From Bacillus sp. AFS059628 (GTDB lineage: Bacteria > Bacillota > Bacilli > Bacillales > Bacillaceae_G), in the NCBI RefSeq assembly GCF_002571225.1, contig NZ_NVEC01000001.1:1-64000 (forward strand): a stretch of 64,000 nucleotides of DNA, in the 5' to 3' direction. The notes under the pieces were generated by a model, which saw only the letters and a list, made by a program, of their open reading frames with translations, was not told the DNA's origin and did not search any database. Both the position numbers and the translations under genes were made by a program. Shown here piece by piece: positions 13,594 through 58,495 of the stretch. Positions within the stretch are counted from its first letter, which is position 1. Each line of letters begins with the position of its first letter.

Positions 13594-14415
13594 CTAGTTT
13601 TTCTTTTTTAATAAACCGTACAATCCTATACAAATTACAATGAGACCCACTATACCAAATGCCAATTCCTCAAATAAATTCCTTGTTTCATGCCCTCTAA
13701 CTTCTACTACACTTTTGGCATCATGTTCAGTTTGATTTGTTTCTACCCTCTCGCCATATATTAACAACCGATATTTATTAGATGTATATGGCTCACATGT
13801 GAGTAATGTAACTCTATCTTGTCCTTTTGTTACACTCAATTTCTCAACTTGATTTGGATTAATGATTTCACGTCCACTTACTTTATAAACAAGTTGCTCT
13901 CCAAGTACATTGACATAGAATATATCGCCATCAGCCAATTGATCCAGGTGCCGAAACATCTTCGCACCATGATAACCTCGGTGCCCTGCCAATACAGTAT
14001 GTGTATCTTTCCCACCAATTGGTAAAGAAGTCCCTTCAATTTGGCCTATTCCTTTACTTAAGTTTTCTTGATTTGCACCTAAGTAAATTGGCAACTCCTC
14101 ATTTATTTTTGGAATTGAAATTGTACCAAACATCTCGTTTTTGTTTACAAAGTCTAACTGCTCATTATCTACTTCAGTATCATGAACAAATGGATCATTC
14201 ATTTTGAAAGTAGTTTTTCCTAACAAACGATTATATGTTTCCATCTTCCGAAATTTCTCATTAACATCTTCTACTTTTAAATTATCGACCATCTTTTCAT
14301 AATGAATTACTCTTGTTTTATATACATAATTATTTATATAATTAGCAACCAATGGATATAGAAATAGAGATAACCCTGTAAGGAACAATATTAAACTTAT
14401 TAAGCCCCTTCTCAC
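13594..14415 (-). CDS. Class C (pilin) sortase, second copy
   Basis: A 273-residue membrane sortase. It has an N-terminal transmembrane helix, the class C lid DPF (in FKMNDPFVHD), the active-site histidine in AGHRGYHG, the TLLTC cysteine, the arginine in KYRLLIYGER, and a C-terminal helix ending LLKKKN. GTG at 14415 is preferred: GGTG lies five bases upstream and the N-terminus then aligns with the first sortase (MRRG versus MKRN). The gap to that sortase is about 20 bases. It probably polymerises pilin or attaches the tip pilin; which of the two copies does which is unknown. Confidence 0.88.
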   Translation of the reverse strand: MRRGLISLILFLTGLSLFLYPLVANYINNYVYKTRVIHYEKMVDNLKVEDVNEKFRKMETYNRLLGKTTFKMNDPFVHDTEVDNEQLDFVNKNEMFGTISIPKINEELPIYLGANQENLSKGIGQIEGTSLPIGGKDTHTVLAGHRGYHGAKMFRHLDQLADGDIFYVNVLGEQLVYKVSGREIINPNQVEKLSVTKGQDRVTLLTCEPYTSNKYRLLIYGERVETNQTEHDAKSVVEVRGHETRNLFEELAFGIVGLIVICIGLYGLLKKKN

Positions 14416-14436
14416 ACACTCACCACACAATACATA

Positions 14437-15237
14437 TTATTTTCGTTTTTTTAAGTAAATGATTAGAAGGATCATACAAATCAGAACAATAGGGACAACA
14501 ATCATCCAATCTTCTAAAATGAAAGGTTTTGTAATCATTTCTTTTTCTCCAGCATCATATGGTACACGGTGTCCTCTCACTAATAGTCTATGCGTATTTA
14601 CTCCATAAGGGGTGCATGTAATTAACGTTGCATAATCTTCTCCTTGTACAACTAATAAATCTTCCGTTTCATTTGGTAATACAACTTTTATTTGATCTAC
14701 TTGATAGGCAAGTACTTTATCTAATGTATGAATATAAAATATATCTTCCTTTACCATTTTATCTAAATGAGTAAACATGAGTGATGAAGGTAAACCGCGA
14801 TGCCCCGTTAAAACTGTATGCGTACTTTCTCCCCCTACTGGTAATGAAGTTTCATCCAACTGTCCAATTCCACGGCTTAACACTTCTTCTGTCGTCCCTT
14901 GATAAATTGGAAGGTTCACATCTATTTTCGGAATTTCTATATGTCCCATAACATCACCAATATTTAACATATCTACGGTCGAACCTTTATGTTCACCATC
15001 CTGTTCACGAAAAGGATCTGAAAATGTTTGCGTCGTATTTTGAATCTTCTTATTATACTCGCTTGCTTCTGTTTCTTTACGATCAATCTCTTCCTGCTCC
15101 AACCTCTTTACCGCTTCATCATACGTACTTACTTCTGAATAGTGAGTTCTTGTCGCAAACCAATTACTTACAGTTGGATAGAGAAATATACTTAATCCTA
15201 GTAAAAAAATACTTCCAAAAATTATATTTCGTTTCAT
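14437..15237 (-). CDS. Class C (pilin) sortase, first copy (SrtD-like)
   Basis: A 266-residue membrane sortase with the same plan as its neighbour: N-terminal helix (FGSIFLLGLSIFLYP), lid DPF (FSDPFREQDG), histidine in TGHRGLPSS, TLITC cysteine, THRLLVRGHR arginine, and a C-terminal helix. Start ATG 15237 with AAAGAGG upstream; the longer frame would read through the preceding hairpin. It lies directly after the major pilin gene, so polymerisation of that pilin through its YPKN lysine is the likely job. B. cereus SrtD is the known relative. Confidence 0.9.
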   Translation of the reverse strand: MKRNIIFGSIFLLGLSIFLYPTVSNWFATRTHYSEVSTYDEAVKRLEQEEIDRKETEASEYNKKIQNTTQTFSDPFREQDGEHKGSTVDMLNIGDVMGHIEIPKIDVNLPIYQGTTEEVLSRGIGQLDETSLPVGGESTHTVLTGHRGLPSSLMFTHLDKMVKEDIFYIHTLDKVLAYQVDQIKVVLPNETEDLLVVQGEDYATLITCTPYGVNTHRLLVRGHRVPYDAGEKEMITKPFILEDWMIVVPIVLICMILLIIYLKKRK

Positions 15238-15266
15238 AACAGCCTCTTTCACTATGGATAAAATGT

Positions 15267-15301
15267 GGAAAAGAGGAAAGCATATCCCTTTCCTCTTTTC
15301 C
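15267..15301 (-). promoter_or_regulatory. Strong hairpin between pilin gene and sortase genes
   Basis: A perfect 14-bp stem (GGAAAAGAGGAAAG and complement) with a 7-nt loop lies between the pilin stop and the sortase start. There is no good U-tract on the minus strand, so partial termination or protection of the pilin mRNA 3' end is more likely than a full stop. This would give more pilin than sortase. Confidence 0.65.
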
Positions 15302-15327
15302 ATACTAAAATATTATGAATATATTCA

Positions 15328-16989
15328 TTAAGAATTCTTTTCAGGTTTCTTTCTAAAGAAAATAAACATTGCTGTCATCATTAGCATAAGACCTACTACT
15401 GTAAAGAGAATTGTCCCCATACCACCTGTTGCTGGGATAATCCATCCGCTCTTATTGTTCTCAACTTGTAAATCAATTACTTTATGATCTTTATCAATTT
15501 TAATATCAATTGGATCTCTTAATTTTTGATATTGCTCTACTGCACCGTCTTCATCTTTATACTTTGGTGCTACCGTTTCAACAATTTGATATTCACCATA
15601 TGGGATTTCATTCCATGTAATCATACCATTTGCATCCGTGATATCATCCATTTTCTTTTTGTTTACTACTACAACATTTCCCTTTTTATCTCGTAATTCG
15701 AATCTTGCACCTTCTAATTTCAAATTCTTATTCTTGCCATCTACTTTTTCAATTTTAATATTTCCCATAGTTGGTGTAACCACTACTTCATTAGATGGCT
15801 TTCCATCTTTTTCTGATGAAACATCATCTTTGTTTACAAAATCTAGTACTGCTTTATTTGGAATTTCTATTCCAGCTTGAGTATCTCCTTTAATTTGTGC
15901 AGTAATTTGCAAATGAAGCTCTTTTCCATTAATTTTTGAAAAATCTTCAATTGTAGCGGTTACTTTTTGACCTTCTACAACTACTTTTACACTACCATCT
16001 TCCACTTTCTTTCCATCAACCATAACAATTGGTTGGCCTTTTATTTCCAAACGATCATCTAAAATATCTGTTACGACATATTTTTTATATAATTTAATAT
16101 CTTCTGGAAGTAATGTTTTGATATCATACGTATAATCTGTCTCTTTATTTATTCCAGCTACTTTTGAACCGTTATTTATACTTTTAGTAATAGTAGGTTC
16201 TTTATAGTTCTTTATATCTTCTAACTTAACTACTTCACCAGACTCCTTAATAGAGAAAGGACGCTCTTCTTTACTAGTTATATAACCGTTTGGAGCCTTA
16301 TGCTCAATAAAATAATAATAATCCCCGTATTCTAGAGAATCTACACGAACTTTACCATCTTCCCCTGTTACTAATGAACTCGGTGTCTTCACTTGTGTGC
16401 TTGTTCCATCTTTATTCTTTTTAAATAAATGGAATTCTGCATCTTTTAACACTTTACCAGCTTCACCTATTTTTACGAATTCTACTGAACCTCTTTTTGT
16501 TTCATTTTTAGGGTAAATATGAACATCGTAATTTAAATCTTTACCGTCTGTACTTGTCATTGGAATATCGACAATAAAAGTAGTCGTATCCAAAGCAATA
16601 TGTTCTGGACCTTTAATAGCTTTTACTTCATAACGTCCTAGTGGAAGATCTGTAAAAACAGCTTCCCCTTTTGCATTTGTTACCTTTGTAATTGCAGCAT
16701 TTTTTACTGGCTTTGCTTCTTCTTTTATAACAGTTCCATCATTTGAATTTTTTTCAAATGACTCAATCCGTTTAATTTCAAAAGTTACACCTTCTAAAGG
16801 TTTTGCATCTTCTGGAACAGTTTGTCCTTCTTTTCCATTGCCTTCTGTAGTTGTTTTAGAACCTTTACTTTGCTCATACTTATGAATCGTTAACGTACCT
16901 GTACTTCTAGATTCCGCACTAACAGCCATGTTAGATAACGTTGAAAAAGCTAACATACAGATTAAAAATAAACTAAAAACCCTTTTCAT
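15328..16989 (-). CDS. Major pilin, BcpA-like (YPKN, IPATG)
   Basis: A 553-residue secreted shaft pilin. It has a signal peptide (MKRVFSLFLICMLAFSTLSN, cut near VSAES), an N-terminal domain with GTLTIHKYE, the pilin motif YPKN (residues 159-162, Lys161 the predicted cross-linking residue), SpaA/Cna-B-type domains with E-boxes (YYYFIEHKAPNGY and YQIVETVAPKYK), and a sorting signal IPATG followed by a hydrophobic stretch and RKK. The sorting motif varies from LPxTG. Start ATG 16989 has AGGGAG upstream. The gene sits between the tip pilin and two class C sortases. Length and plan match B. cereus BcpA; sequence identity was not tested. Confidence 0.9.
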   Translation of the reverse strand: MKRVFSLFLICMLAFSTLSNMAVSAESRSTGTLTIHKYEQSKGSKTTTEGNGKEGQTVPEDAKPLEGVTFEIKRIESFEKNSNDGTVIKEEAKPVKNAAITKVTNAKGEAVFTDLPLGRYEVKAIKGPEHIALDTTTFIVDIPMTSTDGKDLNYDVHIYPKNETKRGSVEFVKIGEAGKVLKDAEFHLFKKNKDGTSTQVKTPSSLVTGEDGKVRVDSLEYGDYYYFIEHKAPNGYITSKEERPFSIKESGEVVKLEDIKNYKEPTITKSINNGSKVAGINKETDYTYDIKTLLPEDIKLYKKYVVTDILDDRLEIKGQPIVMVDGKKVEDGSVKVVVEGQKVTATIEDFSKINGKELHLQITAQIKGDTQAGIEIPNKAVLDFVNKDDVSSEKDGKPSNEVVVTPTMGNIKIEKVDGKNKNLKLEGARFELRDKKGNVVVVNKKKMDDITDANGMITWNEIPYGEYQIVETVAPKYKDEDGAVEQYQKLRDPIDIKIDKDHKVIDLQVENNKSGWIIPATGGMGTILFTVVGLMLMMTAMFIFFRKKPEKNS

Positions 16990-17029
16990 TGTTGTCCACT
17001 CCCTATTGTTTGTGTTACTTTTGTTATTT

Positions 17030-20000
17030 CTATCTCTCATTATTTCTCTTTCTAACAAAGAGAAACAATGTAACAAACATCAATATTCCACCAATTACAT
17101 AATAAATTATTGTCCCTATTCCACCAGTCTCTGGAATAACAAATTCACTCTTTTTATTTACTACTCTTATTTTTTGTGAATCCATTCCAGATTTCACTTC
17201 TATTTCTACTGGCTCTCTCATCAACATATATCCTTTTGGTGCTTGTACTTCTTTTAATGTATATTTGCCAACGATTAATGGAATAGAAGTTGCCAAACCA
17301 TCTTTATCAGTTGTTAATTTACATACTATACTTCCATCTTTACTAATCACTTCAAATACTGCGCCTTCCAATTTGAGATTTTCATCATTCGCATCTACTT
17401 TTTCAATCTCAAATTTCCCTAATGCTGGCGGTACTACAAACACTTCATTTGATACGAATTTCTTCTGGTCAAACAGTAACTCTGCTTTATTTGGAATACC
17501 ATCATTCGCATTGTATTTCGTTAGTATATCTGCATTTACATTAGCGCTTAATCTTGACTTAATATGCATTGTATACAATTGATTCGCAAGATAAGCATAA
17601 TTTCCGTCCGGCTTCGGTAACTCAATACTTACTTTCTTTAATTGTTCATCAATTTGCGGTTTAACTTCTATTTCTTCTCCATAACTGTTTACAAGTTTTA
17701 CTTGCAAGATAGTTAAAATATCTTCTAAGTCATCCTGCAATACTACTTTTTCAAGGTTCATAACATCATTACCAAAATGATAGTTTACATGCCATGTAAA
17801 CTCTTCATCTATACTTTGTAATGTCGCTTTTTCCACTTCTTTTTCATCAGCGTCCGAAACCATCTTTCTTACTTGTGGTTCCTTTGCTTCTACATTTGTT
17901 TTTACATTCGGTTTTTGTGGTGGTAAATCCTCATTATCTGGTGTTTTCCCCTCAACAACCGCTATGTTCTCAATTTCTTTCGTTTTTAATGCGTCTTGCG
18001 TAACTTTCACTTTAAAAGTTACAATTCTTTCTTCTGTATCAAGCACGTCCCCAAAGTTTACTTTGATCGTGTTATCCTCATACGATCCTTCATCTTCGTC
18101 AACTGCATCTGTCAATACATTCCCATTCAATTTCATACTACCAGCTATATACTCAATACCTTCAGGAAGTTTATCCGTTAGACGCATATCTTTAATAAGC
18201 CCATTTTCCACTTTATTTCGGGCTTTAATTTGATACTCAAATTCATCATTAACATGAAATTTTTCTTGCTTTATACCAACAATCTCTTTTTTCGACTCTA
18301 GTTGTCCAGACAACGGGTCAACCAGTGTTTCAACTTCTGGTTTCTCCTTATCTTTCGAACTATCGGTCTCAACTATTGCTATGTTTTTTATTTTCTTATT
18401 TGCCAGCTCTGGTTTTACAACAACTTCAAACGTGATTGCTTTCTCTTCCTCACCTTTAAGATCGCCGAAATGAGCATAAATCGTTCCATCTTTTATATGT
18501 GCATAATGTGCATAATCTTCATCTTCAACATCCGTTTGTTCCTTTCCGTTTATCTTTAACGTGTTCGGAACATACTCTACTCCTTCAGGAAGGTTATCCG
18601 TAATTTTAACTGCCTTTAAGATAGAATCTGGCACACTATTTTTAGCATGAATTGTATATTCTAGTCTGTCGCCAACTTTCAGCGTACCACCGTTTATATC
18701 TTTAGCTAGTTTAGTAGCTACTAGCTTCCCGGGTTTCTCTTCTCGTTCGGGTAATACTTTAACTACTACTTTATTAGAATCGTTAGCCTCAACCTGACTT
18801 CCTGTTAACTCATCAACCCCTTGAACAACAGCGATATTAGGGACTTCTGTTTCTACCTTTTCTCCCCTTAATTTTGCTTTAAATTCAATTGTTGTCTCAG
18901 GTGTTTTATCCGTATAGATTCCACCTTTTGTAGCATTTGCTCCTTCACCAATTCTTATTGTTAACTTTCTTGTCTTTGCATCATAGTCAACTTGTTCTGT
19001 TTCATTTCCAGCATTAGGACCAGAAATGATTTTTACCGAATTTGGTACAAATTCTAGACGCGAATCTAAAACATCTTCAATTTTTGTATCAACAGAACTC
19101 GAATTCGGTTCAATGTTTTTCACCCTTAAACGATATGTAACTTCATCACCTGGCTCATACTTTTCTTTTGCATCTACTACTTCCTTATCGATGACAAGCT
19201 CTGGCGCTGTTGCATTTACTGCAAAAGCTAATGTGTTTAATACGTAGTCATCACCAGCTGTCGCAGCTTTTAAGCGTATTTCCTTTTGCGCTGGTTTAAT
19301 ATATCCTGCTGGTAACTTGATTAAATCCGCATCAACCCCCAAATTATTTTTATAATCTGGGTTAAATGTACCCGGATACTTATCTCGCATATGTTCCTCA
19401 TATTCAGAAATAGTGGAATTGAATATATTACCAGTTGGATTGAGCTTATCATTAATTTCTTTCCAAGCATTATCTGTGTGAACAAACAGTTTATCACCTT
19501 GCCAATATCTATCACCTTGGACAGCGAAAACAGAAACTTTCGGATCTAAATCTCCAGTTTTCGAAGCAATAAAGTTTTTCACTTTAAATTCTTTTTCACC
19601 AGATCCAGTAGCTCTTTTCAATCCACCATCATAAACAGTAAATGCTTTTCTTGTTTTTGACTTATCTTTTGTAATAACTAACATGTACCAACCAGCAAAT
19701 GAATAATATCCATAATTATAGGCAAGTTTTGTATTTGGATAAGGAATATTTGCTAAGGTATAGCTTCCTCCTTTTGAATTAGAGGACTGTAAAAGCTTTG
19801 TAACATCTGCATAGTTAGAATAATAGGTACCATCAATACCAAAACCATAAAGTAAGCCACTTCCGTAATACGTATTACTTGGTTTTACTTGAAAGCTCTT
19901 GCCTGTTGGAGTAGTAAACTTAATTGGTGATACATACTGTTGCTGCGTTAATTCATAACGTGTCGAACTCCAATATAATCCGGCCCATTCAATTTCAGCA

Positions 20001-20365
20001 TCTTCTGGAACGGGAATATATGCCTTAGATGAATTTGTAGTTGTTGGATCATCATCTATATCAATGAGTTCACGGGTATAGCCATTCGGTGCTGTAGACG
20101 CAATATTCGTTATATCTGAATACAATGCTGTTTTCTTCTGAGCTTCAGTAGCTTTAATACCTAAATTCACATTACCGGTCGAATACATCTCACCTTTATG
20201 AATAGATTGATAGGTTGGTTTATCAAAACCTTCTTCATCTGTAACTGCTGCCGTTGCTGTATTAATTGGACTTAAAAATTGCAATTGAGATAATAGCAAG
20301 AATAAACTCATAACAACTACAAATACGTTTAATACTTTTTCATTTTCTTTGATCCTACTGTGCAA
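17030..20365 (-). CDS. Large tip/adhesin pilin (BcpB-like), IPETG-anchored
   Basis: An 1,111-residue secreted surface protein. The signal peptide region is NVFVVVMSLFLLLSQ. An N-terminal adhesin-like domain of about 330 residues follows, rich in Y and G (GYYSFAGWYMLVITKDKS). Then come at least three DUF11-type repeats (EYEPGDEVTYRLRVKN, KVGDRLEYTIHAKN and HVNDEFEYQIKARN variants), a SpaA-like domain with E-box YTLKEVQAPKGY, and sorting signal IPETG with a hydrophobic tail and RKRNNER. TTG at 20365 is the start because a perfect AAGGAGGTGA lies six bases before it. As first gene of the operon it probably caps the pilus. Confidence 0.87.
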   Translation of the reverse strand: MHSRIKENEKVLNVFVVVMSLFLLLSQLQFLSPINTATAAVTDEEGFDKPTYQSIHKGEMYSTGNVNLGIKATEAQKKTALYSDITNIASTAPNGYTRELIDIDDDPTTTNSSKAYIPVPEDAEIEWAGLYWSSTRYELTQQQYVSPIKFTTPTGKSFQVKPSNTYYGSGLLYGFGIDGTYYSNYADVTKLLQSSNSKGGSYTLANIPYPNTKLAYNYGYYSFAGWYMLVITKDKSKTRKAFTVYDGGLKRATGSGEKEFKVKNFIASKTGDLDPKVSVFAVQGDRYWQGDKLFVHTDNAWKEINDKLNPTGNIFNSTISEYEEHMRDKYPGTFNPDYKNNLGVDADLIKLPAGYIKPAQKEIRLKAATAGDDYVLNTLAFAVNATAPELVIDKEVVDAKEKYEPGDEVTYRLRVKNIEPNSSSVDTKIEDVLDSRLEFVPNSVKIISGPNAGNETEQVDYDAKTRKLTIRIGEGANATKGGIYTDKTPETTIEFKAKLRGEKVETEVPNIAVVQGVDELTGSQVEANDSNKVVVKVLPEREEKPGKLVATKLAKDINGGTLKVGDRLEYTIHAKNSVPDSILKAVKITDNLPEGVEYVPNTLKINGKEQTDVEDEDYAHYAHIKDGTIYAHFGDLKGEEEKAITFEVVVKPELANKKIKNIAIVETDSSKDKEKPEVETLVDPLSGQLESKKEIVGIKQEKFHVNDEFEYQIKARNKVENGLIKDMRLTDKLPEGIEYIAGSMKLNGNVLTDAVDEDEGSYEDNTIKVNFGDVLDTEERIVTFKVKVTQDALKTKEIENIAVVEGKTPDNEDLPPQKPNVKTNVEAKEPQVRKMVSDADEKEVEKATLQSIDEEFTWHVNYHFGNDVMNLEKVVLQDDLEDILTILQVKLVNSYGEEIEVKPQIDEQLKKVSIELPKPDGNYAYLANQLYTMHIKSRLSANVNADILTKYNANDGIPNKAELLFDQKKFVSNEVFVVPPALGKFEIEKVDANDENLKLEGAVFEVISKDGSIVCKLTTDKDGLATSIPLIVGKYTLKEVQAPKGYMLMREPVEIEVKSGMDSQKIRVVNKKSEFVIPETGGIGTIIYYVIGGILMFVTLFLFVRKRNNER

Positions 20366-20414
20366 AGAGGTCACCTCCTTCAATAAAATTCATTAACATA
20401 TTATATTAATATAT

Positions 20415-21993: not shown

Positions 21994-22382
21994 CGTTCTA
22001 TGGCGAAAGGGATTAGTAAATATAAAGCATAAGCAATAACCATCCAAATAGTAAATGATATAATTTGCTGTGAGGAGAATTGTGAGAATAGATTAGAAGA
22101 ATTATATAAAATGTAAGTATCTAAAATTAAACCGATTGCTGTACCGCATATACCTAACTTAATAACTGCATATTTTGTAGTATCTAGTTTTTTGTATAAC
22201 CACATTACAAAGTATAAAGCTATAGCCGTTCCTAATTCAAGAAACGTCAATTGTAGAAAAAATCTATTTGAAGTATATTCTAATAAAACGGAAGAACCAA
22301 AAATAATGAAAAATGCTGAAGCAAAAAACCAAACGCCAATCGAAAATAAAATGGTGAGCCAAAGTCTATTATTCACTGACAT
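21978..22382 (-). CDS. Four-helix membrane protein cotranscribed with TetR regulator
   Basis: A 134-residue protein starting MSVNNRLWLTILFSIGVWFF, with four predicted transmembrane helices. The ATG at 22382 overlaps the last codons of the TetR gene by 14 bases and has AAGGGAGG upstream, so translation is coupled. The C-terminus ends inside the terminator stem. I do not recognise the family. It is the probable target and partner of the TetR repressor. Confidence 0.75.
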   Translation of the reverse strand: MSVNNRLWLTILFSIGVWFFASAFFIIFGSSVLLEYTSNRFFLQLTFLELGTAIALYFVMWLYKKLDTTKYAVIKLGICGTAIGLILDTYILYNSSNLFSQFSSQQIISFTIWMVIAYALYLLIPFAIERKKLL

Positions 22383-22953
22383 TACCTCCCTTTTGTAGCA
22401 CTGTAAGCTTTTCCAAGAGCATATATAAATCACCATATACTTTGTCTGTAGAAAAAGATGGATTGAATAACGCTTGCAATGCCAATCCATCAATTAATGC
22501 ATTACATAAAATGCTCCATGTTTCCGTTGAAATTTGAGTTTTCATTGTATCTCCTATTTTTTTATTTAACACACCTTTTAATTCTTGATTTTCATAATGT
22601 AACAATCCACCAATTTTATCTTTCATCGCATCATTTTGTAATCCACTAGCTACTAATTGAAAGAACAAATGATGATACATTGAATCATTCACACATCTAC
22701 TTTCCGCAGACTGTAAAGCCTTCTCTAACTGTACATCCTTTCCTATTTGTTCCCACGATGCTTTACAAAACGATTCCGTTACTTCAAGTAATAATTGATC
22801 CTTCGTTTTAAAATGATAATATACGGTACCTTGTGTAACTTGAGCACTTTCTGCAACTGCTTTTAATGTCAACTTTTCCATCCCGTGCTCTGCAATAATT
22901 ACTTTTGCTGCTTCTAGTAACTTCTCTTTATTAACAACATTCGGTTTTGCCAC
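22369..22953 (-). CDS. TetR-family transcriptional repressor
   Basis: A 194-residue protein. The N-terminal helix-turn-helix (KLLEAAKVIIAEHGMEKLTLKAVAESAQVTQGTVYYHFKTKDQLL) is typical of TetR/AcrR. The C-terminal ligand domain resembles the BetI-like C-terminal group. It starts with GTG after AAGGAGG. A perfect palindromic operator overlaps that ribosome site, so it should repress itself and the membrane protein gene behind it. Confidence 0.87.
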   Translation of the reverse strand: MAKPNVVNKEKLLEAAKVIIAEHGMEKLTLKAVAESAQVTQGTVYYHFKTKDQLLLEVTESFCKASWEQIGKDVQLEKALQSAESRCVNDSMYHHLFFQLVASGLQNDAMKDKIGGLLHYENQELKGVLNKKIGDTMKTQISTETWSILCNALIDGLALQALFNPSFSTDKVYGDLYMLLEKLTVLQKGGNVSE

Positions 22954-22967
22954 TTCTACGACCTCCT

Positions 22968-22995
22968 TTTAAGTTAGTTGTATAACTAACTTAAA
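22968..22995. promoter_or_regulatory. Palindromic TetR operator
   Basis: Two 12-bp arms (TTTAAGTTAGTT at 22968-22979, complement at 22984-22995) with a 4-nt centre. It is directly upstream of the tetR start, adjacent to its ribosome site, as expected of an autoregulatory operator. Confidence 0.75.
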
Positions 22996-25858: not shown

Positions 25859-25941
25859 ACTCTCACCTCTTTAGTAGTTATAGTTATACCTACTAATATA
25901 AAAAAGAAGCTCCGCAAAGTCAATTGATAATTCTGAATTTT

Positions 25942-25973
25942 AAACCTAAAACCTAAAACCTAAAACCTAAAAC
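25942..25973. repeat. Seven-base tandem repeat (AAACCTA)
   Basis: Four full copies of AAACCTA plus AAAC, in the gap between the flgG terminator and the AlaX gene. A repeat of this kind is prone to slippage and could differ between strains. Confidence 0.85.
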
Positions 25974-25977
25974 AAAA

Positions 25978-25999
25978 AGACTCCCGCTAACGGAAGTCT
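25978..25999 (-). terminator. Terminator of the flgG operon
   Basis: A 9-bp stem with one mismatch (AGACTCCCG with CGGAAGTCT) and a 4-nt loop, just after the flgG stop. The A-run on its left gives a U-tract for the minus strand. Confidence 0.8.
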
Positions 26000-26000
26000 C

Positions 26001-26774
26001 CTATCTCAAGATTTCATTCGCTTCTTTTTCATAAATTTTATCAAATGAAGTCATAACGCGTTGTGATGCTGAAATCATTCTTTGATCCGTCATAAGATCT
26101 GCCATCTCTTTCGTCATATCTACATTTGAATTTTCTAGCATATGGTTTTTTACTAAGCCTGTTCCGTTCGGTAAATCAGCAATGTTTCCTTCTGCTAGTG
26201 TAAAGCTTTTATTCTCTCTTTGTATTAGACGAGCATTTGCTTCTGCATCTACTGTTTTAGTTTGCAGGCGTGCAATATTATTTTGTGTTACTTCATCATA
26301 TAATGTACCATCTGCTTGTACAGCTACCTTTGCTCCTTCAGGAATACGAATACGTTCATTATTCTCTCCCATAACAAAAGCACCAGATGATGTTTGCAAG
26401 TAACGATCACTATTTATTGTAAAACTACCATCTCTCGTTAAAAACGTTTCATCGTTTTTAGATGTAACGAAAAATGATGTTGTACCGGCTGCGCCATCGT
26501 CTAAAAAGAAATCTGTAGCACTATTTGTCATTTGTATATTTCCTTGTACTAAGTTCACATGCGTAGCGGCTGGAACTACTGCGTAATCGACCGAACCGAT
26601 ATTTGTCACAGCCCCGTCACCACGGCGATATGTGTCTTGTACATCAAATACTTTAGAAGTCATATTTTCTGCTTTAAATCCTGTCGTTTGGGCATTTGCA
26701 ACGTTATTCGAATGAACATTAATACGCTGCATGTAATTCATCATACCCATTGAACCTATATAAAGACCGTTCAT
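26001..26774 (-). CDS. flgG: Flagellar basal-body rod protein FlgG (FlgF/FlgG family)
   Basis: A 257-residue rod protein. The N-terminal motif INVHSNNVANAQTTGFKAE and the C-terminal SNVDMTKEMADLMTDQRMISASQRVM are the coiled ends shared by axial flagellar proteins. It is last in the export-apparatus operon. It has no ribosome site close to its ATG: AGAGGTGA lies 31 bases away, across a perfect 22-base palindrome (see 26783-26813). It could equally be named FlhO/FlgF by homology; only one such gene is in the window. Confidence 0.9.
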   Translation of the reverse strand: MNGLYIGSMGMMNYMQRINVHSNNVANAQTTGFKAENMTSKVFDVQDTYRRGDGAVTNIGSVDYAVVPAATHVNLVQGNIQMTNSATDFFLDDGAAGTTSFFVTSKNDETFLTRDGSFTINSDRYLQTSSGAFVMGENNERIRIPEGAKVAVQADGTLYDEVTQNNIARLQTKTVDAEANARLIQRENKSFTLAEGNIADLPNGTGLVKNHMLENSNVDMTKEMADLMTDQRMISASQRVMTSFDKIYEKEANEILR

Positions 26775-26782
26775 ATTCGATT

Positions 26783-26813
26783 GAATAAGGCAATTGCCTT
26801 ATTCTTCACCTCT
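26783..26813 (-). promoter_or_regulatory. Hairpin inserted between Shine-Dalgarno and flgG start
   Basis: On the minus strand the order is AGAGGTGA (26813-26806), one base, a perfect 22-base palindrome (26804-26783: 9-bp stem GAATAAGGC, loop AATT), eight bases, then ATG (26774). Folding the hairpin would bring the ribosome site to normal spacing. The same geometry precedes cheR. Confidence 0.75.
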
Positions 26814-26816
26814 TTT

Positions 26817-28127
26817 CTATGATGTTTGTAACATTTGTTTTGCTAAATGTTCAGCTGTAGCGATATGTATGTTTTTCTTTACATCTTGTCCGTCTGTCAT
26901 TAATACAATGGGAGCAGATGACACTGCTGGAATTTTCAATAACTCACCACTACTTGCTGTTTCATCAAATTTCGTAAATACGATACCATCAATATGAATA
27001 TCTTTAAAGTTCGTAATGATTTCGATCATATCTTTACTTTTCATCGAAGCTGATAACGTTAAACAAATATAATCTGGCTCTACTTGTCCCATCGTTTCAA
27101 TCATTTCTTCCACTGTTTCTGACGCACGATAATTTTTTCCAGCTGTATCAATTAAAATATAATCGACGCGCGCTTCTTCTTTAAAATACGTAAGCGCTCT
27201 TGTCATTGCAGCTTCATCACGTACAGCGATTACTTCAAATCCAATTGTCTTTACGTAATCTTGCAGCTGCTGTACCGTTCCAATGCGTGAATGATCTGTC
27301 GTAATAAAACCGACCGTTTTTTTCTTACCGTGGAACTGCCATGCCATTTTCGCAAGTGTCGTCGTTTTTCCAACTCCAGTTGGACCGATTAATGCAATTG
27401 TTTGTACTTCTTTTTCAAATACATTTTCCGTATTGAAATGAGATCTCATATCTTCCAATATATATTCGATCACTTCTTCTTCTGTAATCATCGTCGCATT
27501 CTCAAACTTCACTTTTAACTTTTCAGCATATGCATGAATGAAGTATTGTTCTACATCGTTTTGCTCTAGCATGCGAATTACTTTTTGAATAATAAATGGC
27601 ACAGATTCTTGCTTTTCTTTCTTTACAACCACTTCTTCTTTTTTGACAGGAACGACTTTTTTCATAGCTTTTTGCTTTTTTGTTACTTTCGTTTCTTCCG
27701 TCTGTTTCACAACGACGATACCTTTTTCAAACAACTTTAATAGTTTCTCTTTCTTTCTTGCCCATTCTTCACTATTTCCTGTTTGCATCGCCGCATATGA
27801 CATCGGAGTCGTCACGTTTTCTAAATTGTGCAGTACCGATTGAATTCCGTTCGCCTTCACAATTTGTTCTGAAGGCTCATTCACAACATCCATTAATTGT
27901 TCATGAAATTGAGCTGTGCCTTCGTTCACTTCTTCCTGTTTATCCTCTGGAAAAGCGACTAACATTTCATAATTCTTTTTCCAAAAAAACGGGATATTTC
28001 GTTTTACACTTTCATCGACAACGTAATAATAATCTGTACCATATTGGTCAAATAACTTTCGATACAATTCATTTTTCGAAGCTGCTTTTATTCGCATTAA
28101 CGCTTCTTTCTTTTCTGTACTTTCCAT
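26817..28127 (-). CDS. flhF: Flagellar SRP-type GTPase FlhF
   Basis: A 436-residue protein. The C-terminal NG domain has P-loop GPTGVGKTTT, then TTDHSRIGTVQQLQ, DYILIDTAGKNYR and the TKFDETASSG motif of SRP GTPases; the N-terminal basic region (B domain) is divergent. FlhF guides placement of flagella at the membrane. It sits between flhA and flgG. The usual partner gene flhG is absent here. AGGGGGTGAAGTA precedes the ATG. Confidence 0.93.
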   Translation of the reverse strand: MESTEKKEALMRIKAASKNELYRKLFDQYGTDYYYVVDESVKRNIPFFWKKNYEMLVAFPEDKQEEVNEGTAQFHEQLMDVVNEPSEQIVKANGIQSVLHNLENVTTPMSYAAMQTGNSEEWARKKEKLLKLFEKGIVVVKQTEETKVTKKQKAMKKVVPVKKEEVVVKKEKQESVPFIIQKVIRMLEQNDVEQYFIHAYAEKLKVKFENATMITEEEVIEYILEDMRSHFNTENVFEKEVQTIALIGPTGVGKTTTLAKMAWQFHGKKKTVGFITTDHSRIGTVQQLQDYVKTIGFEVIAVRDEAAMTRALTYFKEEARVDYILIDTAGKNYRASETVEEMIETMGQVEPDYICLTLSASMKSKDMIEIITNFKDIHIDGIVFTKFDETASSGELLKIPAVSSAPIVLMTDGQDVKKNIHIATAEHLAKQMLQTS

Positions 28128-45713: not shown

Positions 45714-47014
45714 ACGATATGGTGCATCGCTTCAACAATATCATCAAATCGGAAACGATCAGATCGACCTTGTTTTAAAAACGTATTTATACCTTCTACT
45801 TTGTTTTTACATTCAAAAATATAAGCATTTTCTGCATTTTCTTGAATCGTTCCTAATTTAAAATACAATTCATTTTCTTTATAAATAGATAAGATTTTTC
45901 TCATTTCATTTGCAAGTTGCCAGTGATTTGGCGACACGATTTCTTCCATAATCCTACTTACTGAATCTAGCACTGAAATAGCAGGGTAATGACTGAGCGT
46001 TGCAAGCTCACGCTTTAATACAATATGTCCATCTAAAATACCACGTGCTAAATCTGGTACAGGTCCGTTTAAATCATCCCCATCGACGAGTACTGTATAT
46101 ATACCTGTTATGGATCCCTTTTGTGTTTTTCCAGACCGCTCTAACAGCTTCTTCATATAACTTTCCATTAATAGTGTCTTACCACCAATCGGCAACTCTT
46201 TAACAGCAATATCAACACTTCTACGCGCGTCAGCAAAACGAGTAACAGAGTCCATCATAAGTAGTACGTTATTACCTTGATCACGGAAATATTCAGCAAT
46301 AGATGTCGCAAGCTTCGCTGCACGAAGTTGCATTAGGTGACTTTCATCTGATGTCGCTACAACAACGACGCTTTTTCGCATTCCTTCTTCACCTAATTCT
46401 TTTCGAATAAAGTCTTTTACTTCTCGGCCACGTTCTCCTACTAAACTAATAACATTAATGTCAGCTTTTGCGTTTTTCGCAACCATTCCGAGTAAAGTAG
46501 ATTTACCAACACCAGAGCCTGCAAAAATACCAATCTTTTGACCGATGCCAATTGTTAGCATAGAATCAATAGATTTGATTCCCGTTTCAAATACATCGGT
46601 AATTTCTTCACGTTCAAATGCATGAATAGGTGGGGAATCTAGTTTTATTTTCTGTAGTGGAATATTCTCTGCATCCTCATTTAGTACTTCGCCATTTGCA
46701 CTTAACACTTTTCCGAGTAAATGATTGCCACGAGGTATAACAACATCTTCTGCAATTAATGTAACGGAATCTCCGTAGCATACTTTTTCTGTCTGTTCAA
46801 ATGGTAATAACATATTGTTTTCTTTTTCAATCGCAATCACTTCACATAAAACATTATGTTCTCCAACGAGACAAACATCACCGATTTTCGCCTTTGGCCC
46901 TTTCGCTACAAAAAACTGCTCTTGCACACTATGAACTTTACCAACTTTCGTATAAAACGGCGTTTCAATAAATGTATTCCATTTTTGGTTTTCATTCATT
47001 AATAGTTGATTCAT
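45710..47014 (-). CDS. fliI: Flagellar export ATPase FliI
   Basis: A 434-residue F1-beta-like ATPase. P-loop FAGSGVGKSTLLGM, then VGERGREVKDFIRKELG, Walker B VLLMMDSVTRFADARR and YTVLVDGDDLNGPVPD are clear. Its start overlaps the fliH stop by four bases, with GAGGAG upstream. Last gene of the flgB-fliI operon. Confidence 0.95.
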   Translation of the reverse strand: MNQLLMNENQKWNTFIETPFYTKVGKVHSVQEQFFVAKGPKAKIGDVCLVGEHNVLCEVIAIEKENNMLLPFEQTEKVCYGDSVTLIAEDVVIPRGNHLLGKVLSANGEVLNEDAENIPLQKIKLDSPPIHAFEREEITDVFETGIKSIDSMLTIGIGQKIGIFAGSGVGKSTLLGMVAKNAKADINVISLVGERGREVKDFIRKELGEEGMRKSVVVVATSDESHLMQLRAAKLATSIAEYFRDQGNNVLLMMDSVTRFADARRSVDIAVKELPIGGKTLLMESYMKKLLERSGKTQKGSITGIYTVLVDGDDLNGPVPDLARGILDGHIVLKRELATLSHYPAISVLDSVSRIMEEIVSPNHWQLANEMRKILSIYKENELYFKLGTIQENAENAYIFECKNKVEGINTFLKQGRSDRFRFDDIVEAMHHIV

Positions 47015-47697
47015 ACATTTTGCTCCTCAAATAACTTCTCTTCTTCCCATTTCTCGCGAAGTTTCGCAAATATAGGTGCAAATTTAAATTCAAAGAACTC
47101 TTTCTCTTCTTCTAGAACAAATTCACCGAACTGTAAGGAGAAATCGTATTTCCATTCTACTAATTGTAGTAACCAATATTCTTTCGTATTTTCCTTCTCT
47201 TCTTGAATACGTTCAAATGTTTCTGGATGTACGGTAATAACTAGTTTTTCAAACGAAGTCGGCAACGTTTGAACGATGCCAGTTAAAATAGGTAACACAT
47301 CAAGCAATCTAGCATCTACTGCTTGATTCACAATTTTTTCTGCTAGTTGAAAAGATTGATCCCATAATAATTCCATCCATTCGTATGCTGTTTCTTGTTG
47401 TTCTTTTTGAAACTGTATACGTGCCGATTCTATCTCTTTCATCTGCCGCTGTACATGTATTTGAAAGTGTTCTTGATCATGTAATAACTGCTGACGTTCT
47501 CGTTCTAACATTTGTTGTTCTTGCCTTAGTTGATTCAGTTCAGTATGTAATGATTGTTGCTGTGCAAGAAGCTCTTCATGGTTCACCTGTATTTCTTCTT
47601 CTACTTGAACTGGTATTGGTTTTGGAAATTGTAATTCATACGTTTCTTCAGAAAAAGAAACAGAATTCTTCGGAATTCTGTTTTTAAATAAGGACAT
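47011..47697 (-). CDS. fliH: Flagellar assembly protein FliH
   Basis: A 228-residue protein with a long glutamine-rich coiled coil (about residues 30-100: LHTELNQLRQEQQMLERERQ) and a C-terminal FliH domain (EKLVITVHPETFERIQEE; QFGEFVLEEEKEFFEFKF). It holds and inhibits FliI and links it to FliN. ATG 47697 has AGAGGTG six bases upstream; it overlaps the end of fliG. Confidence 0.87.
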   Translation of the reverse strand: MSLFKNRIPKNSVSFSEETYELQFPKPIPVQVEEEIQVNHEELLAQQQSLHTELNQLRQEQQMLERERQQLLHDQEHFQIHVQRQMKEIESARIQFQKEQQETAYEWMELLWDQSFQLAEKIVNQAVDARLLDVLPILTGIVQTLPTSFEKLVITVHPETFERIQEEKENTKEYWLLQLVEWKYDFSLQFGEFVLEEEKEFFEFKFAPIFAKLREKWEEEKLFEEQNV

Positions 47698-48688
47698 CAT
47701 CTTCACCTCTTTGAACGATAATTCTTCCTTCCTTCTCTAGCTTTTTCACTGTACCTGTAATTGTTTGCTGAGCTTTTTCAGCATCCGTCATCTTAAGCGG
47801 TCCTAAGCCATCTAATTCTTCTAGAATCATCTCTTTACGGTTTGAAGACATACATGTAAATAATTTTTCTTTAATCTCTTCTTTTGCAATTTTAAGTGCT
47901 TTCGCAATAACACCGTTATCTGTAATTTCTTCTAATACACGACGAAGTGCAAGATCTTCAAGTCCGAGTAAGTCTTCAAATACAAACATATTTTCTTTAA
48001 TTTTCTCAGATAACTCATAATCCATTTCATCCAGCTTTTGAAAGACTGTTTTTTCAACACCTCGTGAAACGTTATTTAAAATGTTTACTATTGTTTTCAA
48101 GCCATCTGTTTTATTAATTGCATTAAACGCCATATTATTTAATTTTGATTTTAATAAATCCCCAATTTGATTTATTAATTCACCATCTACTTGCTCTAGC
48201 TTCGCAATCCCCATTACCGTTTCTACTCGCTTATGATCTGGTAATCTCTCAATTAATTGAGAAGCAAGCTGCGGTTTAATATAAGAAGCGATAATTGCAA
48301 TCGTTTGTGGCGATTCATCATTAAGTACAGTAAGAAGTGGTTCTAAATCTGTAAGTGAATTTAAGAATTCAAACGGATTATCTTTGTTATACCAAAGATC
48401 TTCCAATAATTTTTCTAGTTCGTCTTCTGGCATATTTTTAAATATGCGACGAATATATTCTTTATCTGGAGTCACTAGGTTTAATTCTTTTACATTTAAT
48501 TCATACAAGAACTCCCCTAGTACATTTTCTAACGTTTCCGGTTTATATACACGAAACTTCGCGATTTCACGAAGTAATACTTCTTTTTCCTCAGCCGTCA
48601 TATATTCAATGACTTTTGCTGCCACCCCTTCTTCTAATGTACGAATAAGGATGGCAGCTTTTTCTTTGGAGGAGATTTCATCTAACAT
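47684..48688 (-). CDS. fliG: Flagellar motor switch protein FliG
   Basis: A 334-residue C-ring rotor protein. N-terminal EKAAILIRTLEEGVAAKVIE; middle domain LTVLNDESPQTIAIIASYIKP (EHPQ-like region); C-terminal torque helix with RRVLEEITDNGVIAKALKIA and MILEELDGLGPLKMTDAEKA. Start ATG 48688 has GGGAGGAA upstream. Confidence 0.95.
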   Translation of the reverse strand: MLDEISSKEKAAILIRTLEEGVAAKVIEYMTAEEKEVLLREIAKFRVYKPETLENVLGEFLYELNVKELNLVTPDKEYIRRIFKNMPEDELEKLLEDLWYNKDNPFEFLNSLTDLEPLLTVLNDESPQTIAIIASYIKPQLASQLIERLPDHKRVETVMGIAKLEQVDGELINQIGDLLKSKLNNMAFNAINKTDGLKTIVNILNNVSRGVEKTVFQKLDEMDYELSEKIKENMFVFEDLLGLEDLALRRVLEEITDNGVIAKALKIAKEEIKEKLFTCMSSNRKEMILEELDGLGPLKMTDAEKAQQTITGTVKKLEKEGRIIVQRGEDDVLI

Positions 48689-57028: not shown

Positions 57029-57175
57029 ATATATCACCTATTTATTTATTTTTTTATTTCTCCCTAAACTTAATCGTAAAATCCAGTTATTTATAATTAT
57101 ACTCTGAACACTAACATTTTGCAGTTATTTTTTATAAAAGATATGTTACAATTTAGCATGAGGTGGCACAAATCT

Positions 57176-57673
57176 ATGAATATTTTTCTTTGTGGTTCAA
57201 ATCAATTAACAGCATTAGATCAGGAAGAAATAAAAAAATTTTTAACTGACTATGCTCACAAACATAAAATTTACATATTATGTTATAAATCTATTGAAAA
57301 TGAGATTCTTCGTTTTTTCATCGAAAACGAAAGACTCGCTCAAAATTTATGCCTTTACACGCTACAGCCGTTACAAGCATTAACAGATGAATTTCAAGAG
57401 GTCGTTGATTACTTAAAAAAACACGGAGCCGAGTATGTCGCTTTTGATCATCCTTCCGACTCCATTTACCGATCAGATTATATGTTTTTTGTAAAACAAA
57501 TAATCGAAGATACCGATTTAGTTCTCTGTTTTTATAATGGGGACAAGCATACATCTGTCATTCCCGTTGACGTTGCAAAAGAAGCAGGAATTGATGCTGT
57601 TATTTATGATTTACCAGGTTTACATGAAAAACAGATGAAAAAAAACTTTGAACAAAAAATCCGTATGATGTAA
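57176..57673 (+). CDS. Uncharacterised Rossmann-like protein upstream of cheR
   Basis: A 165-residue soluble protein, MNIFLCGSNQLTALDQEEIK onward, with alternating strands and helices. FLCGSN at the start, DTDLVLCFYNGDKHTSVIPVDVAKEAG near the end, and an overall layout recall the nucleoside deoxyribosyltransferase/SLOG group, but key residues cannot be assigned. It is the first gene of the plus-strand pair with cheR (40 bases apart). ATGAGGTGG precedes ATG 57176; longer frames lack support. Function unknown. Confidence 0.72.
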   Translation: MNIFLCGSNQLTALDQEEIKKFLTDYAHKHKIYILCYKSIENEILRFFIENERLAQNLCLYTLQPLQALTDEFQEVVDYLKKHGAEYVAFDHPSDSIYRSDYMFFVKQIIEDTDLVLCFYNGDKHTSVIPVDVAKEAGIDAVIYDLPGLHEKQMKKNFEQKIRMM

Positions 57674-57702
57674 AGGGGGAGGCACAATATCGTTATTGTG
57701 CC
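57673..57702 (+). promoter_or_regulatory. Hairpin inserted between Shine-Dalgarno and cheR start
   Basis: AAAGGGGGA (57672-57680) is followed at once by a perfect hairpin (GGCACAATA 57681-57689, loop TCGT, TATTGTGCC 57694-57702), then ten bases, then ATG 57713. Unfolded spacing is 32 bases; folded, about 10. The stem and loop lengths are identical to those before flgG. Confidence 0.75.
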
Positions 57703-57712
57703 TATTATAAAT

Positions 57713-58495
57713 ATGATAATTGAACAAGATTATGATCATTTTATCGCGAGTTTTAAACAACAATTCAATATGGATATCGCTTCATATAAACAAGATAGAA
57801 TGCGTCGTAGAATCGATGCTTTTATTTCGAGAAAGGGCTTTGAGAACTACACTAGTTTTCTAAGCAATTTACGTACCGATCAAAAGTTATTTTTAAGTTT
57901 TATTGACTATATTACAATTAACGTTTCAGAGTTTTTTAGAAATAAAGAACGTTGGCAAACGTTAGAGACGAAAGCACTACCAAAATTACTCGAACAAAAT
58001 AACGGAAAATTAAAAGCATGGAGTGCCGCTTGCGCTGCCGGTGAAGAACCATATACACTCTCTTTAATTTTATCGAAGCACCTAGCTCCATATCGTTTTG
58101 AAATACAAGCAACAGATCTTGATTTTCACATTTTAGAAACTGCAAAACGCGGTCAATATACAGAACGTTCTTTAAAAGAATTACCTGCCGATTTAAAAGA
58201 GCGTCATTTCACAAAAGAGAATGATATATATTCATTACACCAAAACATTAAACAAAACGTCACGTTCAAGCAGCATGACCTGTTAATGCAGTCGTTCGAT
58301 ACAAATTACGATTTAATCATTTGTCGCAACGTAATGATATACTTTACTGAAGAAGCAAGGGTAAAACTTTATGAAAAGTTTAGTCGTGCTTTACGAAAAG
58401 GCGGCGTATTATTTGTTGGTAGTACTGAACAAATTTTAACACCTGAACGTTATAATCTTCAGCGCTTCGATACATTCTTCTACGAAAAAATATAA
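57713..58495 (+). CDS. cheR: Chemotaxis methyltransferase CheR
   Basis: A 260-residue receptor methyltransferase. N-terminal helical domain (SYKQDRMRRRIDAFISRKGF), SAM-binding WSAACAAGEEPYTLSLILS, QATDLDFHILETAKRGQY, and LIICRNVMIYFTEEA. It methylates chemoreceptor glutamates. ATG 57713 is preferred to the GTG at 57698, which lies inside the hairpin stem and adds only five unlike residues. It is far from any cheB in this window. Confidence 0.93.
   Translation: MIIEQDYDHFIASFKQQFNMDIASYKQDRMRRRIDAFISRKGFENYTSFLSNLRTDQKLFLSFIDYITINVSEFFRNKERWQTLETKALPKLLEQNNGKLKAWSAACAAGEEPYTLSLILSKHLAPYRFEIQATDLDFHILETAKRGQYTERSLKELPADLKERHFTKENDIYSLHQNIKQNVTFKQHDLLMQSFDTNYDLIICRNVMIYFTEEARVKLYEKFSRALRKGGVLFVGSTEQILTPERYNLQRFDTFFYEKI

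Follow-up and report, generated by a model that had tools for sequence, protein, structure and literature searches.

The analysed window, a 64,000-nt stretch of Bacillus sp. AFS059628 (contig NZ_NVEC01000001.1; all positions below refer to it), carries a flagellar and chemotaxis gene cluster which includes MogR and resembles that of the Bacillus cereus group; a published account gives this group as the only known carrier of mogR besides Listeria (PMC7793685). The proteins FlhA, FlhF, FliF, FliM, FliD and FlgK are encoded by intact ORFs and match the Pfam families expected of them; the cheA reading frame is still open at the window edge. Outside the motility genes, two large minus-strand ORFs (15328-20383) resemble LPXTG-anchored pilin proteins with isopeptide-forming domains. 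The region 13594-17076 had no matches in a near search of plasmids, and the pilin-like protein, which is an ill-suited query for this purpose, matched in 0 of the 19 genomes of the family described below. A 28-nt inverted repeat with a 12-bp stem and a 4-nt centre (22968-22995, minus strand) immediately precedes the AGGAGG of a gene for a TetR-type regulator (22369-22953) and is possibly the operator of this gene.

The flgG gene (26001..26774, minus strand) encodes a flagellar rod protein of 257 aa (Pfam PF00460, PF06429 and PF22692) starting from an ATG at 26774, and at its end lies a terminator-like hairpin (25975..26002, minus strand; a consensus match only). The upstream cistron is flhF (26817..28127, minus strand), an ORF call of 436 aa for an SRP54-type GTPase (Pfam PF00448, E 3.7e-40). 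Its TAG stop codon, read from the sequence at 26819-26817 on the minus strand, is overlapped by an extended Shine-Dalgarno (SD) sequence, AGAAAAGAGGTGA (26806..26818, minus strand), recognised from the sequence and from its duplex energy with 16S rRNA. On the minus strand a single A separates this SD from a perfect palindrome of 22 nt, GAATAAGGC-AATT-GCCTTATTC (26783..26804, minus strand), which is self-complementary through its centre at 22 of 22 positions and as RNA would form a hairpin with a 9-bp stem and an AATT loop. An 8-nt tail, AATCGAAT (26775..26782, minus strand), leads from the hairpin to the start codon, and the 42 nt from the flhF stop to the flgG ATG are made up of most of the SD, the single A, the palindrome and this tail. 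The coordinates, stem, loop, 8-base tail and SD core AGAGGTGA given in the initial annotation all proved exact when read on the minus strand. An intrinsic terminator was also considered for the palindrome and rejected: the T-run after the stem is absent, and the terminator prediction did not list it.

The assignment of the flgG start is supported by homology. The protein begins with MNGLYIGSMGM, and the matching methionine starts the homologues in two relatives (L022 and L023; 55-56% FlgG identity) and in two Listeria records (L014 and L015), the FlgG proteins of this set beginning with MNGLYIGSMGM or MKGLYIGAAGM. No in-frame ATG, GTG or TTG is present between the in-frame TAA in the 5' arm of the palindrome and the flgG ATG. 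A minigene running from a GTG to a TGA, ending in the ATGA at the flgG ATG, was dismissed as well; it would require an SD of its own, and none was properly spaced on inspection by eye. At an ordinary distance from the candidate starts of flgG the best SD match was a 4-mer. Paired with an assumed sequence of the 16S 3' tail, the SD that overlaps the flhF stop gave a duplex energy of -15.5 kcal/mol, versus -1.7 kcal/mol for the 21 nt before the flgG ATG. The strong GGTGA core is placed 31 nt from the ATG, and the near SD match is weak.

A stable hairpin occupies the gap entirely between the SD and the AUG. Its stem was predicted to pair with a probability of at least 0.99 at 20-45°C. The predicted unpaired probability was about 0.76 for the SD beside it, which is thus mostly open, and about 0.3 for the partly paired AUG. 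The 86-nt leader region had a predicted fold z-score of -2.75, and 3 of 200 shuffles folded equally well. Without the hairpin, the spacing becomes 9 nt from GGTGA at flgG (1 + 8).

The same order of elements, i.e., stop codon, SD, hairpin, 8–9 nt and AUG, was found in front of a second gene of the locus, cheR (57713..58495, plus strand; 260 aa from the ATG at 57713; Pfam PF01739, E 1.7e-55). Here the SD AAAGGGGG (57672..57679, plus strand) overlaps the stop codon (57671-57673) of the ORF directly upstream (57119-57673, plus strand; 184 aa), for which no NCBIfam match was obtained at E<=0.001. It is followed by a hairpin of 24 nt (57680..57703, plus strand) with a 10-bp stem and a TCGT loop and then by a 9-nt tail, which is also the spacing that remains without the hairpin. 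The overlap between the SD and the stop of the upstream ORF, common to both genes, was not part of the initial annotation. The latter had described the two layouts as equal, which holds for the loop length, while the stem is 9 bp at flgG and 10 bp at cheR and the tail 8 and 9 nt, respectively; it was right that the hairpins differ in sequence, and they are in fact unrelated. The 184-aa ORF and cheR form a short plus-strand pair in a cluster that is otherwise mostly on the minus strand. A further hairpin close to a start at an intercistronic junction was observed at 47658-47683, just past the stop of the preceding ORF and among the opening codons of a FliH-like ORF (47011-47706); it is perfect, with 11 bp and a tetraloop reading TTCG on the plus and CGAA on the minus strand.

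The frequency of the layout was estimated with a rule defined post hoc, with both cases already known: an SD with 5 or more matches in a row, a stem of at least 8 bp starting no more than 4 nt away, then 4-13 nt and a start codon. Genes were called greedily, without curation, as ORFs of 80 aa or more, and every in-frame ATG, GTG or TTG in the first 50 codons was tried with 70 nt upstream, which amounted to 259 starts for the window and 8270 for the nearest relative found, G881. Only flgG and cheR, 2 of the 65 ORF-called window genes, had the layout. A chance co-occurrence of SD, hairpin and start draws some credit from the post hoc choice of the layout and from the plentiful perfect stems of this AT-rich window, where 22 stems of at least 9 bp (loop 3-8) were counted, versus 2.5 on average when the whole window was shuffled 30 times with dinucleotides preserved; such bare stem counts carry little information, since by eye many of the window stems resemble terminators. 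When the upstream 70 nt were shuffled, however, the layout appeared on average in 0.013 genes per window; of the 300 sets, 4 had at least one case and none had two. In 20000 shuffles of each spacer alone, such a stem of 9 bp or more arose 8 times for flgG and 7 times for cheR.

The scan of G881 (2.0 of 3.89 Mb, 2811 N) also spoke against coincidence, with a single match among 1939 genes, located 24 codons inside its ORF. The difference from the window gave a Fisher p of 0.003 with this match counted and 0.001 without it; both the post hoc rule and the higher G+C of G881 (0.40 versus 0.35 in the window) make these rarity figures optimistic. Chance co-occurrence is therefore regarded as very improbable, and the proposal of the initial annotation that the pair exceeds an accident of composition was supported by the shuffles of the upstream regions and spacers and by the G881 scan. 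No case was present among the ORF-called genes of G992 (0/64 in 79,754 bases) or of the two Listeria records L014 and L015 (0/15 and 0/14). A looser rule admitting imperfect hairpins, in which genes with an ordinary SD of at least 6 matches were skipped and no more than 3 starts per gene were tried, gave 11 of 1939 genes in G881, versus 8, 4 and 4 with decoy SDs. Among the 65 window genes it found two, flgG and one other ORF, and missed cheR, with 0, 1 and 0 for the decoys. The G881 count does not clearly exceed the decoys, so a wide hairpin-bridged class is not evident in that genome. One of the looser-rule matches, a 96-aa gene of G881, has by eye a terminator-type inverted repeat.

Close relatives of the locus were few, and no genome of the B. 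cereus group was met in the collections searched. A search of genome contigs recovered 5 loci, all with distant FlgG (27-30% identity). The phylum and class samples contained no close relative: of 398, none matched at E<=1e-40 and 6 did at E<=1e-25, with identities of 31-35%. The order sample of 249 genomes provided two relatives, G881 and G828, with an FlhA identity of 79-80%, and no closer FlgG was present in their genus (4 genomes) or family (19 genomes). In G992 and G993, two of the four genomes of this genus, the window FlgG was unmatched at E<=1e-40 and CheR at E<=1e-30, which suggests a patchy distribution of such motility loci within the genus. A tblastn search of plasmids with FlhA and CheR brought up the Listeria records. 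The plasmid and phage sequences searched contained nothing close to the flhF-flgG region, and no FlgG relatives were found in IMG/VR.

In these relatives the homologous genes have ordinary SD sites. The flgG of both G881 and G828 has an AGGAGG 6 nt ahead of the ATG, and in their cheR a presumed GTG start follows a weaker SD. The flhF and flgG genes of both Listeria records share a 4-nt overlap (ATGA), with the AGGAGG lying within flhF, and cheR has a G-rich SD about 7 nt ahead of its ATG. A strong SD thus precedes flgG in the relatives as it does here, but, unlike in the window, the spacing at their flgG and cheR sites is about 6 to 11 nt with no intervening hairpin. With stems of at least 5 bp considered, the layout of SD, stem and start was found at 0 of the 8 flgG and cheR starts of the two relatives and the two Listeria records, while the same code recovers both window cases; the cheR of L025 has a 5-bp stem, but upstream of the SD. 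Among the 77 ORF-called genes of the G881 flagellar region a perfect stem of at least 8 bp occurs within 60 nt upstream in two, in both cases 5' of the SD. The eight starts without a hairpin indicate that it is not generally required for flgG or cheR, and given these starts the hairpin layout looks derived rather than ancestral. The simplest history read from these sequences would be a later gain of a self-complementary segment within an ordinary SD-AUG spacer.

Such a history leaves room for palindromes that landed in ordinary SD-start spacers of about 9 nt and have no selected or regulatory role. The looping out of the hairpin would then operate just as in the explanation preferred below, the difference being the reason for which the hairpin is there: a self-folding insert is nearly harmless, and for that reason it would persist. 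Tolerated insertions agree with the ordinary spacing that remains at both flgG and cheR once the palindrome is removed in silico, with the absence of a gap at all eight outgroup sites, with the lack of sequence relationship between the two hairpins and with the rarity of the layout in G881. On the other hand, a repeat family was not found: IMG/VR contained 0 exact copies of either palindrome, the flgG leader had no Bacillus match in plasmids, no further copy of the flgG palindrome with up to 3 mismatches was present in the window and neither palindrome occurred with up to 4 mismatches in the 2.0 Mb of G881. Two cases in 65 genes would also be odd for random insertion. Overall, we give merely tolerated insertions somewhat less than an even chance.

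Ribosomes terminating at flhF might alternatively re-initiate at flgG, with the hairpin being incidental or just limiting the drift of the 30S subunit. The flhF stop touches the SD, and the ATGA overlap of flhF and flgG in Listeria makes an ancestral coupling plausible. This, however, leaves a strong SD without a normally spaced start and 22 nt still to be removed or scanned, and it does not explain the perfect stem at both flgG and cheR; translational coupling as the main explanation is considered unlikely. Even less probable is a palindrome acting as a DNA operator or as an element of mRNA processing or stability rather than in initiation. Intercistronic hairpins often set mRNA decay, and the flgG palindrome, symmetric through its centre, is similar to a dyad operator; yet its neighbours are co-directional genes, 25900-27100 contains just one promoter-like site on the flgG strand, which is inside flgG, and at cheR the hairpin differs in sequence and its loop is asymmetric. 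The flgG palindrome also did not fit, by eye, the MogR box TTTTWWNWWAAAA, the consensus being taken from PMC7793685. Rfam gave 0 matches in the window at the gathering score and 0 at E<=5 in 26650-26950, which disfavours a known RNA element.

The explanation we favour, with moderate confidence, is that the flgG leader is an accommodated, or "split", ribosome-binding site in which the hairpin is looped out, and likewise for cheR. The 30S subunit would base-pair with the strong SD overlapping the flhF stop, while the 22-nt palindrome would fold into its 9-bp hairpin and be looped out rather than melted, shortening the distance between GGTGA and the AUG from 31 to 9 nt, at which initiation would become possible. 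At cheR the identical architecture would act through a different hairpin. That ribosomes use the flgG hairpin in this way in the cell is what we infer from the arrangement and its precedents.

The closest precedents are genes of phage T4, described in PMC3014915, through which the split-site work of Nivinskas (1999) and of Malys and Nivinskas (2009) is also cited here. A hairpin is reported to cut the SD-AUG distance from 22 to 5 nt in gene 38 and from 27 to 11 nt in gene 25, and in both genes destabilising mutations lower initiation (PMC3014915). As at flgG, the SD is remote and a hairpin between it and the AUG restores the spacing, and gene 25 shares with flgG the position at an intercistronic junction (26-25); its arrangement is limited, according to the same source, to a subset of related phages (PMC3014915). 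The T4 cases belong to a phage and were tested by mutation, in gene 25 also with a reporter and DMS probing (PMC3014915). In contrast, the genes in the window are chromosomal flagellar genes with a perfect palindrome, for which a split site is predicted from the sequence. In E. coli thrS the hairpin lies 5' of the SD and is part of autoregulation, whereas the flgG hairpin lies between the SD and the AUG. The thrS site, studied by Sacerdot et al., is likewise split, and its likeness to the proposed flgG site is that the ribosome accommodates the hairpin without unfolding it (PMC3936740). A contrary case, with a different structure, is a G-quadruplex 20 bp before a start codon, which is noted to have lowered translation (PMC11087576). 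No description of a hairpin-split flgG leader in Bacillus was found in a partial coverage of the literature by titles and abstract openings. Its sequence features make the flgG leader a probable chromosomal representative of a type of ribosome site that is known but sparsely documented.

The initial annotation had taken the two cases as a shared translational device. A hairpin bridging SD and start is retained as the best explanation with the T4 precedent, while the sharing goes beyond the evidence: the hairpins are unrelated, the looser-rule count in G881 did not clearly exceed those of the decoys, none of the eight outgroup starts has the layout, and its presence at just 1 of 1939 G881 genes means that a general Bacillus device is not evident. 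We consider it improbable that hairpin-bridged sites (stop, SD, hairpin, 8–9 nt and AUG) arose repeatedly in the flagellar operons of this lineage as a selected control point, at which the stability of the stem, or a factor or RNase acting on it, would set the dose of FlgG and CheR independently of the operon mRNA.

The tested hairpin-accommodating sites met in this work are those of phage T4, together with the related thrS of E. coli. Two chromosomal cases in one motility cluster, with a perfect stem, a strong SD and a homology-supported start, would offer a simple system for studying how the ribosome deals with structure in the spacer. The flgG and cheR layout would also be a warning to start-site predictors which assume a fixed SD spacing. 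If the hairpins are merely tolerated, they would illustrate that the folding of RNA can neutralise an insertion.
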